Positions 49,558 to 55,584 of a stretch of 64,000 bases of DNA are shown one piece after another. A model generated the notes under the pieces. It had not been told where the DNA came from. It saw only the letters and a program-made list of their open reading frames with translations, and searched no databases. Position 1 is the first letter of the stretch. Each line of letters opens with the position of its first letter. The DNA is from Chroococcus sp. FPU101 (GTDB taxonomy: Bacteria; Cyanobacteriota; Cyanobacteriia; Cyanobacteriales; Microcystaceae): assembly GCF_017312365.1 (NCBI RefSeq), contig NZ_BLJI01000003.1, forward strand, positions 124,001-188,000, written 5' to 3'. A program made the translations under genes and the position numbers.

Positions 49558-50097
49558 ATGAATACCCAATTTAAAGTTAAATTTCTCAACCACCTCGCTA
49601 AAAAGAAAAAAGATAACAAAGGTTTTACATTAATTGAACTATTAGTTGTTGTCATCATCATCGGTGTACTTGCTGCGATCGCTCTCCCCAACCTCCTCGG
49701 TCAAGTTGCTAAAGGCAGACAGGCTGAAGCCAGAACCACTCTTGGCGCACTCAACCGCGCTCAACAGGCTTATCGTCTAGAAAAAGCTGTGTTTGCTCCA
49801 GGCCTTAGTTCTCTACCCGTTACAGCCAATTCCCTTCAATACTATGGCCAACCCAGTGTTGCGGCATCGTCTACTCCTGCCTTAGGTGCGAATGCACAAA
49901 TGCTTCCTACCACTGCATATACCAATGATATAAAATCTTATGCTTCTGCGGTAGGTCAACAAAACGACGGTACTTATAGTGCAGTTGTTTGTGAAGAGAA
50001 AGGTAATCCATCTGCGGGTACAAATGCTACTGCTACTGCTGGAACTGCTAGTGGGCCTGCTACTTGCGATACTGCCAATAGTGATCCAGTCAACTAA
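49558..50097 (+). CDS. Type IV major-pilin-like protein (copy 1)
   Basis: 179 aa prepilin. Class-III-type signal: basic leader ending KDNKG, cleavage before F in G-FTLIELLVVVIIIGVLAAIALP, with Glu5 of the mature form present. The hydrophobic helix is followed by a variable, Ala/Thr-rich head with two Cys (VVCEEKG and PATCDTAN), likely the C-terminal disulfide loop. This is PilA-type pilin for motility, DNA uptake or attachment. A strong terminator follows. AAGGAAA lies before the ATG. Confidence 0.92.
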   Translation: MNTQFKVKFLNHLAKKKKDNKGFTLIELLVVVIIIGVLAAIALPNLLGQVAKGRQAEARTTLGALNRAQQAYRLEKAVFAPGLSSLPVTANSLQYYGQPSVAASSTPALGANAQMLPTTAYTNDIKSYASAVGQQNDGTYSAVVCEEKGNPSAGTNATATAGTASGPATCDTANSDPVN

Positions 50098-50311: not shown

Positions 50312-50650
50312 ATGCTCTCAAGCGATGTCTTAAATCCACAAGTTATTCGGCAAATGCTTCATCTATCCCAAGAACGGATGAGTCATTTACTGCACGTTAG
50401 TACTAAAACCTTATGGCGATGGGAAAATACATCTACTGCTCCTAATAGCGTAGCTCTTCAACATCTATCTAAGCTAAAGCAAATTGCTTCTCTTGCTTCT
50501 AAAGTCTATACTCCTGAAGGGATTGAAACTTTTTTGTTTACCCCAATCGAAGAGTTTGATTTTCTAACCGCTTATGACATGATAGCTTTAGGAAAACACG
50601 AACAAGTGCTAGGAGCCTTAGCTGCTGACTATGAAGGGCTTGGTTATTAG
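50312..50650 (+). CDS. Xre-family antitoxin (RES-Xre pair)
   Basis: 112 aa. The N-terminal helix-turn-helix (VIRQMLHLSQERMSHLLHVSTKTLWRWE) is followed by the Xre/MbcA/ParS toxin-binding domain (FLFTPIEEFDFLTAYDMIALGKHEQVLGALAADYEGL). In this TA class it neutralises and regulates the RES toxin encoded 3 bp downstream. Confidence 0.85.
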   Translation: MLSSDVLNPQVIRQMLHLSQERMSHLLHVSTKTLWRWENTSTAPNSVALQHLSKLKQIASLASKVYTPEGIETFLFTPIEEFDFLTAYDMIALGKHEQVLGALAADYEGLGY

Positions 50651-50653
50651 CCG

Positions 50654-51193
50654 ATGCTTCTTGATTTAATTGAACCTTGGTCAGGGGAAGCATTTCGACA
50701 TCTTCCCGATGGTGATTACGATGTTTACGATTTCCGCTATGCAGGTTTGGCTCAGAATAATCGCTGGAATTTATTTGGAGAATCGACGTTATATTTAGCA
50801 GGCTCTATTGATGTTGCTGCCGCCGAATGGTCACGTCATTTTCAATTTGATCGCCCTCAGAAATTGGCCGCTCAAACCAAAAGAAGAAAGGTTTACTGTT
50901 TTGAAGTAAGTCTAAATCGAACTTTGAATTTATGTGAGCCACAACTCTGGGAAGAATTATCGCTCTTAAATGCGCCAAATTGTTTTCTAGAGAAAAATGT
51001 TGCTAGAGCGACTGCCCAGTTTATTCGGCAAACCACTGAGGTCGAAGCAATCTTTGTGCCGTCGATGGCTTTTTTAGATCGGTTGGATAAGTGGGTCTTA
51101 GTGATCTTTTTAGAAAAATTGTCTAATGTTGACCCTAAACAGTTTTTGCCAACGGTTAATGACTATGGTTACTTAAATGTTGAAAGTGTCTGA
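50654..51193 (+). CDS. RES-domain toxin
   Basis: 179 aa RES domain. Its diagnostic residues are present: Arg in GEAFRHL, Arg/Trp/Asn in NNRWNLFGESTLYLA, and the Glu in AAAEWSRH. RES toxins of characterised pairs degrade NAD+ or ADP-ribosylate targets. The frame is intact, unlike most toxins in this window. It is the second gene of the pair after the Xre antitoxin. Confidence 0.85.
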   Translation: MLLDLIEPWSGEAFRHLPDGDYDVYDFRYAGLAQNNRWNLFGESTLYLAGSIDVAAAEWSRHFQFDRPQKLAAQTKRRKVYCFEVSLNRTLNLCEPQLWEELSLLNAPNCFLEKNVARATAQFIRQTTEVEAIFVPSMAFLDRLDKWVLVIFLEKLSNVDPKQFLPTVNDYGYLNVESV

Positions 51194-51248
51194 ACTGCTA
51201 TGAACAAGCTATCAGTATTAATAGTAGCTAAAATAAAAAAAAAACCTT

Positions 51249-51641
51249 ATGTCTGAACTCAAAATGACTACACAACAACAGTTAGAAGCTATTGAAGCGC
51301 AATGGGAAGAAGAAGACCCCCGAATTTTAGAAGCTGCTAGAGAATTTCTTAAAGATGATCTTTCAACTGATGAAGAAAATGAAAAGCTTAAAAAAGCATA
51401 TTTACACAGAGGGAGAGAAAAAGAATATGAGTATGAGTCAAAACAAGAATATTTATTTTATAAACACTTACCAAGCTTAATTAAAAATTATTCAGGTTTG
51501 TATGTATGGTTTGAAGATGGTGAAGTGAAAGACTATGACCAAGATGAAGTAACTTTATGTGGTAGAGTGGTCAGAAGTGATGCAGTAAGAGAGAGAGAAA
51601 TACGAGCTATTTATGTTAATAAAGTGCCTGAACTCAATTAA
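51249..51641 (+). CDS. DUF5678-like protein (module copy 1)
   Basis: 130 aa, acidic and highly charged. The N-terminal ~60 residues are helical (QQLEAIEAQWEEEDPRILEAAREFLKDDL). The C-terminus YSGLYVWFEDGEVKDYDQDEVTLCGRVVR to AIYVNKVPE has the pattern of DUF5678 (YxGxxVxxxDGxVxxxGxDxxEV...IxxVP). A second ATG lies six codons in (MTTQQQ). The stop is followed directly by the ATG of the retropepsin gene (TAA-ATG, no gap), so they are coupled. Function unknown. Confidence 0.6.
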   Translation: MSELKMTTQQQLEAIEAQWEEEDPRILEAAREFLKDDLSTDEENEKLKKAYLHRGREKEYEYESKQEYLFYKHLPSLIKNYSGLYVWFEDGEVKDYDQDEVTLCGRVVRSDAVREREIRAIYVNKVPELN

Positions 51642-52040
51642 ATGATCATTAGTCCATATCGAAAAATCAATAATCTTTACGTGCCATCTATTAAAATTCA
51701 ATTTGCTAACCCTAATAATTTGCAATTGAACTTATATGAGTATGGACTTTTAGACACAGGTGCAGATGTTACTTTAATCCCAGACTTTATAATTAGAGAA
51801 CTTAATCTTCGTAATATGCGAGAGGAGAACAGAATAACAGTTAGAGGAATTAATAATAGTCGTATGCAAAGTATTCCATATCTGATAAGTTTTAGTTTTG
51901 ATTACCAATACTTTTTTGACTCAGTTGTCTATGATATTACTGAAACAGAATTAAGAGAAATCATTATAGGACGAAACATTCTTAATCAATTTTCGATTAG
52001 ATTTGATGGAATTGACAAAAGAATTATTATTAATCCTTAA
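51642..52040 (+). CDS. Retropepsin-like aspartic protease (module copy 1)
   Basis: 132 aa, one lobe of an aspartic protease, so expected to act as a homodimer. The catalytic triad is LLDTGADVTLIP (DTGA) and the matching flap-side hydrophobic motif is IIIGRNILNQFSIRFDG near the end (the I-I-G-R-N/D pattern of retropepsins). No signal peptide or membrane segment, so cytoplasmic. Bacterial relatives are little studied; pairing with a DUF5678-like gene is suggestive of a functional unit. Confidence 0.75.
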   Translation: MIISPYRKINNLYVPSIKIQFANPNNLQLNLYEYGLLDTGADVTLIPDFIIRELNLRNMREENRITVRGINNSRMQSIPYLISFSFDYQYFFDSVVYDITETELREIIIGRNILNQFSIRFDGIDKRIIINP

Positions 52041-52124
52041 AAATATTGTTCATAATAAAATAATAGGTAGTAATCAGTTGGCTGATACTTAATGAATTGT
52101 AGCTAAAATCAAGAGAAAAACCTT

Positions 52125-52517
52125 ATGTCAGAACTCAAAATGACTACACAACAGCAGTTAGAAGCTATTGAAGCGCAATGGGACGAAGATGATCCTCGAA
52201 TTTTAGAAGCTGCAAGAGAATTTCTTAAAGATGATCTTTCAACCGAGGAAGAAAAAGAAAAAATTAGAACAGTTCAATTTCAAAGGGGTAGAGAAAAAGA
52301 ATATATTTATGAGGAAAGACAAAGTGAGCTATTTTATCAACACTTACCAAACTTGATCAAAAAGTATTCAGGTTTGTATGTCTGGTTTGAAGATGGTGAA
52401 GTCAAAGATTATGACCAAGATGAAGTAATCTTATGTGGTAGAGTAATTAGAAATGATCTTGTACGGAATAGAGAACTAAATGCTATCTATGTTAATAAAG
52501 TTCCTGAACTCAACTAA
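52125..52517 (+). CDS. DUF5678-like protein (module copy 2)
   Basis: 130 aa paralogue of the gene at 51249. The first 19 residues are the same, with most change in residues ~40-70. The C-terminal GLYVWFEDGEVKDYDQDEV block is kept. Stop and next start are again abutting (TAA-ATG). Function unknown. Confidence 0.6.
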   Translation: MSELKMTTQQQLEAIEAQWDEDDPRILEAAREFLKDDLSTEEEKEKIRTVQFQRGREKEYIYEERQSELFYQHLPNLIKKYSGLYVWFEDGEVKDYDQDEVILCGRVIRNDLVRNRELNAIYVNKVPELN

Positions 52518-52916
52518 ATGATTATTCGTCCTTATCAAAAAATTAATAATCTTTACGTTCCTTCTATCAAAATTCAATTCGCTAATTCTAATAATTTACA
52601 ATTAAACTTATATGAATATAGTCTGTTAGACACGGGAGCGGATGTTACTTTAATCCCCTATTTTCTAATTAATGAGCTTAATCTTCCTCAAATCAAAAAC
52701 CAAAATCGTATAACAGTTAAGGGAATTAATAATCGTCGCCTAGAAAGTCTTCTATATCTTATAAGTTTTAGTTTCGATTACCAATATTTTTTTGACTCAA
52801 TTGTTTATCATATTCCTGAAATAGAATTAAGAGAAATCATTATTGGTCGCAACATTCTTAATCGGTTTTCTATTAGATTTGATGGAATTGACAGAAGAAT
52901 TATTATTAATCCTTAA
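52518..52916 (+). CDS. Retropepsin-like aspartic protease (module copy 2)
   Basis: 132 aa paralogue of the gene at 51642, with catalytic LLDTGADVTLIP and IIIGRNILNRFSIRFDG intact. Conservation of both active-site motifs in both copies indicates selection for protease activity rather than decay. It ends 112 bp before the second pilin gene. Confidence 0.75.
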   Translation: MIIRPYQKINNLYVPSIKIQFANSNNLQLNLYEYSLLDTGADVTLIPYFLINELNLPQIKNQNRITVKGINNRRLESLLYLISFSFDYQYFFDSIVYHIPEIELREIIIGRNILNRFSIRFDGIDRRIIINP

Positions 52917-53028: not shown

Positions 53029-53541
53029 ATGAATACCTACTTTACAGCCCAATTTCTGCAAAACCTTGTACGAAAGAAAGAAAATAAAGGTTTTACGCTA
53101 ATTGAACTTTTAGTAGTGGTCATTATTGTCGGTGTTCTTGCTGCTATTGCCATGCCATCACTTTTAGGACAAGTTGTTAAAGGAAGGCACGCTGAGGCTA
53201 GAGCGATGTTAGGGGCGTTGAACCGCGCACAAATGGCGTATCGCTACGAAAAGGCGATTTTTACCAAAATACAAGATTTACCGATCGTAGTTCCTGCACC
53301 TGGTTTATACTACTCTTTTGTCGATGATGGAACTCCCGACACATTTCATGGCGCACAGAAAGCAGTCGCTTTACCCGCTTACGACAATGATATTAATAAT
53401 CACGCATCAGCAGCAGGACAAACCGCATCGGGTGGATATACTGCGGTGTTATGCGAAGATGAAGAACCTACTCAGGATGATGTGACCACGACTCATACAT
53501 CAGGTGTTGTCTCTTGTGTCAATGGTATTAGTTTAAAATAA
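53029..53541 (+). CDS. Type IV pilin-like protein (copy 2)
   Basis: 170 aa prepilin paralogue of the 49558 gene. Leader ends ENKG, cleavage before F in G-FTLIELLVVVIIVGVLAAIAMP, and mature Glu5 is present. The head shares GRxAEARAMLGALNRAQMAYRYEKA with copy 1 and carries paired Cys (AVLCEDE, VSCVNG). It lies 21 bp before the gene at 53563 and is likely co-transcribed with it. Confidence 0.9.
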   Translation: MNTYFTAQFLQNLVRKKENKGFTLIELLVVVIIVGVLAAIAMPSLLGQVVKGRHAEARAMLGALNRAQMAYRYEKAIFTKIQDLPIVVPAPGLYYSFVDDGTPDTFHGAQKAVALPAYDNDINNHASAAGQTASGGYTAVLCEDEEPTQDDVTTTHTSGVVSCVNGISLK

Positions 53542-54971: not shown

Positions 54972-55358
54972 TTAAGGATTACTTAATAAGTCTAATTCTT
55001 GAATAAAACGATAATCTTTTTGATTTTTAGTTAATAATGGAATAAATTCAATAATAGTTGTTGCTGCAATCCAAGAATCAGGAATTAATAACCCATGACT
55101 AAGTCAATAAGTTTTAATTAAATTTAAAGCTTTTTCTGAAATATTGCATTCAATAAGAACTTGATAATTTCTCAAAAAACTTTCGAGTTTTTGCAATTCT
55201 GTTTTATTTTTACAGCCGACTACTAACTCCATTTGAGTAATAATACTAATCGCTAATGTTGATGATTTCGATTCTTGTTGAATTCTATTAACAGCATTAA
55301 TGACTCCCATACCTACATCAATCAAAATATCAGTATCTACTAAAATTTTATTGGGCAT
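54972..55358 (-). pseudogene. VapC-type PIN toxin with a premature TGA
   Basis: ILVDTDILIDVG at the start is the PIN catalytic Asp motif. Translation stops at TGA (55104-55106) after NLIKTY, but the frame runs on LSHGLLIPDSWIAATTIIE to TAA at 54972, with the third acidic residue in IPDSWIAA intact. The expected residue at the stop is Ser (TCA to TGA). One nonsense codon in an otherwise complete ~128-codon gene. Confidence 0.85.
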
Positions 55359-55359
55359 C

Positions 55360-55584
55360 TTAAATCATCCATTCTGAGCGACGTAGTTGGCGTACCCATT
55401 CGTTACTTTCTTTTAGATCTTCTCGATCTTGCCACATTCCAATAAAATGTTCATTTTCCATCCTTAAAGGTTGCACTTGTACGGGTTGAGAAGTTTTCTT
55501 TAACTCAATATCAAGTAAGTGCCTTTCCTCTAGACTTAAAGAATTAATAATATTTACTAAAGAATTAATTAATTGAGTATTCAT
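55360..55584 (-). CDS. VapB-type antitoxin
   Basis: 74 aa, one base before the vapC pseudogene start. LVNIINSLSLEERHLLDIELKK is the N-terminal dimerisation/DNA-binding part, and the C-terminal WVRQLRRSEW tail is basic. The pattern matches antitoxins of cyanobacterial PIN pairs. The reading frame is intact. Confidence 0.7.
   Translation of the reverse strand: MNTQLINSLVNIINSLSLEERHLLDIELKKTSQPVQVQPLRMENEHFIGMWQDREDLKESNEWVRQLRRSEWMI

Follow-up and report, generated by a model that had tools for sequence, protein, structure and literature searches.

A recurrent link between DUF5678 proteins and retropepsins is the new result of this study. At the level of genome sequences, the two gene products, a small partner protein and a single-lobe aspartic protease encoded directly downstream, were found to be near-obligately linked, closely coupled and co-inherited. 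Two tandem copies of the pair are encoded in a stretch of 64,000 nucleotides from Chroococcus sp. FPU101 (contig NZ_BLJI01000003.1, positions 124,001 to 188,000), referred to here as the window. The link connects a domain of no described function to a specific enzyme class across several phyla and gives many uncharacterised bacterial proteases of the HIV type a testable role.

Organization of the tandem cassette

All genes of the cassette are located on the forward strand. Copy 1 consists of the gene for an acidic DUF5678-type partner (51249..51641; 130 aa, pI 4.7) and that for the retropepsin (51642..52040; 132 aa), which contains the catalytic motif LLDTGAD and a second motif, IIIGRNILN. Copy 2 encodes a partner of 130 aa (52125..52517; 80% identity to that of copy 1) and a retropepsin of 132 aa with an intact catalytic motif (52518..52916; 81% identity). 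The pI of the partners in the window is 4.6–4.7. In both copies the partner stop codon is followed by the ATG of the protease gene in frame and without a spacer. The duplicated unit, with a DNA identity of 84% between the copies, takes in approximately 30 bases upstream of the partner gene; a short leader (GTAGCTAAAAT...ACCTT) lies at 52096..52124 on the forward strand and has a counterpart before copy 1 at about 51223-51248. Open reading frames and motifs thus agree with the preliminary description, in which a two-gene unit had been reported as duplicated head-to-tail with abutting stops and starts and preserved active sites.

The dN/dS ratio between the copies is about 0.26 for the partner and 0.17 for the protease, and since both values point to purifying selection, both copies have been maintained in a functional state. 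The cassette block is A+T-rich (G+C content 0.30, compared to 0.376 for the window). The tandem arrangement is not unique to the window, as tandem pairs were also found in another genome (L157). A third, divergent pair is encoded elsewhere in the same genome (L138, contig C6), where the genes of an 89-aa DUF5678 protein and a DTG protease overlap.

Identity of the protease

By motif, Pfam match, PDB profile and predicted fold, the window protease is a genuine retropepsin of clan AA, for which catalytic activity is predicted. It matched the Pfam family RVP with 25.7 bits (cut-off 20.7), and a profile of 12 relatives identified the HTLV-1 protease (5.9e-8) and Ddi1 (about 6e-6) in the PDB. The predicted fold is closest to that of APRc of Rickettsia, the nearest solved fold, and to HIV-1 protease (fold match 5e-6). 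These results bear out the earlier assignment as a single-lobe aspartic protease with a DTGA motif. The motifs LLDTGAD and IIIGRN, present in both copies, are nearly invariant among relatives, and the catalytic aspartate was found in 31/32 aligned relatives, the exception being L082. Deviating motifs are DCG in L075 and, in an additional relative (L070), DTA. No obvious signal peptide was seen in the window protease by eye.

The partner protein and the DUF5678 domain

The C-terminal domain of the partner is homologous to the Pfam family DUF5678 (PF18929), a family without a described function. Neither window partner matched PF18929 directly in a Pfam scan; the description of the first protein as DUF5678-like holds by way of a profile of relatives, built without the window proteins and L049, which matches both window partners at about 1e-12. 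PF18929 itself is matched by 30/35 of the homologous partners. The window partner is composed of N-terminal helices and a C-terminal DUF5678 hairpin domain (residues ~74-125), and the AlphaFold2 model (mean pLDDT 90.5) places helices in the first half, followed by a beta hairpin with a helix on either side. No significant match to the whole-partner model was found among PDB folds, and no known DNA-binding domain was recognised at the N-terminus by Pfam or fold search.

Among relatives, the N-terminus of the partner is exchanged, often for domains of antitoxin type, and the C-terminal part is retained together with the protease. Partners from Chloroflexota carry ribbon-helix-helix (RHH) N-termini (PDB profile matches to AvtR, CopG, NikR and MazE6); other N-termini are UPF0175, receiver, pentapeptide and FtsA-like domains. 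RHH, UPF0175 and AF2212/DUF104 are listed as antitoxin families in a 2009 survey of toxin-antitoxin systems (PMC2701414). In a Dehalococcoidia genome (L067, 128-1540), an FtsA-like ATPase with a C-terminal DUF5678 domain is encoded directly upstream of a retropepsin. Proteins combining a receiver-like domain, DUF5678 and an apparent AlbA_2-type domain, with no protease, were seen in L147, L152, L158 and L160.

Linkage of partner and protease

A scan with a protease-alignment profile over one genome per species (84,980 species), in which the upstream gene was not considered, yielded 47 loci. The alignment was required as query, as the single window protease gave no matches in the genome contig scan. 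Leaving out L069, where the locus is cut by the contig end, a small partner gene is located directly upstream of the retropepsin gene in 44/46 assessable loci, 36 of them encoding DUF5678 proteins and 8 encoding proteins with an 'SPRL' tail. The partner C-terminal-domain profile, for which pairs of known adjacency had served as input, matches the directly upstream gene in 34 loci. The 35th DUF5678 partner (L091) is a weak match to this profile, and the 36th (L070) matches Pfam DUF5678 below the curated cut-off. The two assessable loci without a partner encode a degenerate protease (L088) and a protease outside the family with a signal-peptide-like start (L094).

The pairing spans Cyanobacteria, Chloroflexota, Planctomycetota, Verrucomicrobiota and other phyla. 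In 242 genomes of the same class, several of which overlap with the 47-locus scan, intact strong protease matches were again paired; in the same search, a DUF5678 gene was absent at remnants or fragments (L176 and one in L200) and at weak, secreted-looking retropepsins.

In the reverse direction, a search of 100 cyanobacterial genomes of the same order with PF18929 yielded 55 matches, of which 32/55 either form part of a retropepsin ORF or directly precede one. According to the ORF tables from which these counts were read, 16/55 share one ORF with the retropepsin (typically about 200-240 aa), and another 16/55 are followed at once by a retropepsin encoded in an ORF of its own. About a dozen further matches resemble remnants of the fused form. 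Several fused ORFs adjoin gidA on the chromosome. The existence of one-ORF fusions argues for a functional linkage of partner and protease. Co-occurrence of the two families, on which the preliminary description had made its pairing depend, is therefore very strong from the protease loci (44/46) as well as from the DUF5678 matches (32/55).

The distance from partner stop to protease start in 32 pairs has a median of 0 and is at most 13 nt in 30/32, with nine overlaps of -4, measured to the start codon nearest to the partner stop, a choice that favours short gaps. Overlaps of -1 were also found among the junctions. The distance matrices of partners and proteases are correlated with r = 0.81 (0.82 within Cyanobacteria), a value that includes a contribution from common species ancestry; no permutation exceeded 0.20. 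No recurrent third gene was found in the flanks of about 30 loci.

Genomic location and distribution

The cassette is located within a pilin locus, as had been noted before: Pfam identifies Pilin_GH genes on both sides, at 49558..50097 upstream and at 53029..53541 downstream, both on the forward strand and regarded as the ancestral flanks. The inserted block also contains, on the same strand, a gene for an Xre-like HTH protein (50312..50650) and one for a RES-domain protein (50654..51193; RES 5.3e-8), which together form a pair of the RES/Xre type. The cassette and Xre-RES block is absent from a congeneric genome (L161) and from further genomes of the family (L162-L165), which contain at least two pilins together with the gene that follows them. 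Since related genomes possess the pilins without this block, it is accessory cargo and not part of the pilus machinery. The gap between the pilins looks like an insertion hotspot. In L161 (6573-9270), the same gap contains an IS200-like ORF and an apparent PIN-type fragment, as read from the ORFs. Downstream of the cassette, at 55104-55584, an apparent short PIN-toxin/antitoxin-like pair was seen, with a PIN ORF of only 84 aa.

The distribution of the retropepsin is patchy (15/196 genomes of the same order). Plasmid, phage and viral collections gave no matches to the module and thus lend no support to its origin from a phage or plasmid. Next to locus L049, a gene for a topoisomerase was seen together with a very large ORF.

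Proposed function and alternatives

The pair is probably a self-contained two-gene module, in which the partner controls its own cytoplasmic retropepsin. The partner would be translated just before the protease and might bind it via the C-terminal DUF5678 domain and the tail, so that the protease is held inactive or aimed. The N-terminus of the partner could tie the pair to DNA (autoregulation), to oligomerisation or to a signal. Upon loss of the partner, the retropepsin would be free to dimerise and might cut one or more cellular proteins. In a one-chain readthrough model of partner and protease (pTM 0.57), the relative placement of the two is not fixed.

The layout of the module resembles that of type II toxin-antitoxin (TA) systems, and TA function is the leading physiological version of control by the partner; that the module works as an actual TA system is a tentative proposal. 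Relatives share several traits with such systems, namely a partner gene in first position, overlapping or abutting genes, swappable N-termini of antitoxin type, an autonomous cassette and a patchy distribution. The lack of a recognised DNA-binding domain at the N-terminus of the window partner, the missing PDB fold match for the partner model and the empty plasmid, phage and viral collections weigh against a partner-controlled module of this layout, as do several fused forms beside gidA, which look more like housekeeping genes. Receiver, pentapeptide or FtsA-like domains, which are atypical for antitoxins, occur in a subset of the partners and would fit a broader regulatory role. The comparison with toxin-antitoxin or regulator-protease pairs in the preliminary description is thus retained as far as coupling, co-occurrence and the TA-like layout in relatives are concerned, but a DNA-binding N-terminus was not recognised in the window partner.

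An unlikely alternative to a partner-controlled protease is a switch of the ImmR/ImmA kind, in which the partner is both regulator and substrate and is cut by the retropepsin upon a signal, freeing the operon or other genes. It would account for partners that begin with RHH, UPF0175 or receiver domains and for the position of the protease gene right after the regulator gene, and has a precedent in the COG2856 protease encoded with an Xre repressor (PMC2701414). The window partner, however, has no recognised DNA-binding domain, the one-ORF fusions are devoid of any such domain, and a conserved cleavage site was not found.

Even less probable is a processing protease with housekeeping function that has an adaptor of its own, where DUF5678 would recruit or position substrates and the variable N-termini would pick the target. 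The diversity of partner N-termini (FtsA-like, pentapeptide, receiver), the one-ORF fusions, several of them next to gidA, and the processing roles of the bacterial retropepsins RloA and RimB (PMC12239564) are consistent with this, but the patchy distribution, the multiple, partly decayed copies of a related class described below, the insertion between pilins and the lack of a fixed neighbourhood would be unusual for such a protease. Chance neighbours without a functional link, with the tandem copies being passive, are favoured by none of the observations and rejected as highly improbable given the linkage in both directions (including 44/46 loci), the fusions, the coupling, the co-inheritance and the purifying selection on both genes.

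Relation to known systems

Type II TA systems with RHH, UPF0175 or AF2212/DUF104 antitoxins, for example those with PIN toxins, are likewise small two-gene cassettes with the regulator gene in first position. Abutting or overlapping genes, exchangeable DNA-binding N-termini (here in relatives) and a patchy distribution are further points of likeness, whereas the second gene of the pair described here encodes a retropepsin and not a nuclease or another listed toxin. Neither a retropepsin nor an aspartic protease was found when the text of the 2009 TA survey (PMC2701414) was searched. If the protease were toxic, the module would represent a class of TA systems in which the toxin is a protease.

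ImmR/ImmA systems also combine a regulator gene with a small protease gene, and the two are sometimes fused. In contrast to these, the protease of the pair belongs to the aspartic clan AA instead of the HEXXH zinc peptidases, and the partner is a DUF5678 and not an Xre protein; no match to an Xre repressor or a zinc-peptidase family was found within the pair, which is therefore not assigned to ImmR/ImmA. Cleavage of the partner by the protease, if it occurred, would constitute a new repressor-cleavage switch.

The single-lobe DTG fold is common to the window protease and to Rickettsia APRc, RimB and RloA. To our knowledge, none of these bacterial retropepsin-like proteases has been reported with a DUF5678 partner. 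RloA is secreted (PMC12239564), unlike the window protease, which is predicted to be cytoplasmic. No paper describing the DUF5678-retropepsin pairing was found in open-access full text, and a description elsewhere is possible. The PADLOC defence candidate PDC-M08B was rejected, with partial matches only (E 0.0016-0.014).

Further partner classes and the tail motif

The eight loci with a different upstream partner (class II: L074, L076, L078, L079, L080, L085, L086 and L090) encode proteins with a common end similar to SPRLvxpeqAxDFxxEV on unrelated N-termini. Two of these N-termini are AF2212/DUF104-like (Pfam, below cut-off); the remaining ones appear AF2212-like, RHH-like or coiled-coil-like by eye. 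All eight partners contain SPRL or close variants, and the corresponding motif in the tail of Chloroflexota partners reads RSPR. A Ser/Thr-Pro motif is present within the last 22 residues of 17/32 DUF5678 partners compared to 7.9 expected from shuffled tails, for sequences that are related and not independent and a motif picked after inspection. The window partners end with VPELN and do not contain the motif.

A third, more distant class of cyanobacterial retropepsins was found in 32/60 genomes with up to six matches, some of them with stops. The upstream gene encodes a WSPY-type tail in 23/33 inspected loci, a descriptive count for a pattern written after examples had been seen. A hitherto unrecognised TA superfamily with a retropepsin toxin and at least three partner classes (DUF5678, AF2212/RHH-like 'SPRL' and 'WSPY'), in which the common short C-terminal Ser/Thr-Pro motif could dock into the protease or obstruct it, is conceivable but doubtful. 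The third-class loci (L204-L231) are abundant, patchy and sometimes decayed, and in most of them the DTG codon lies a constant 196 nt downstream. A third-class retropepsin copy with one stop (L220) is present in the genome from which the window was taken.
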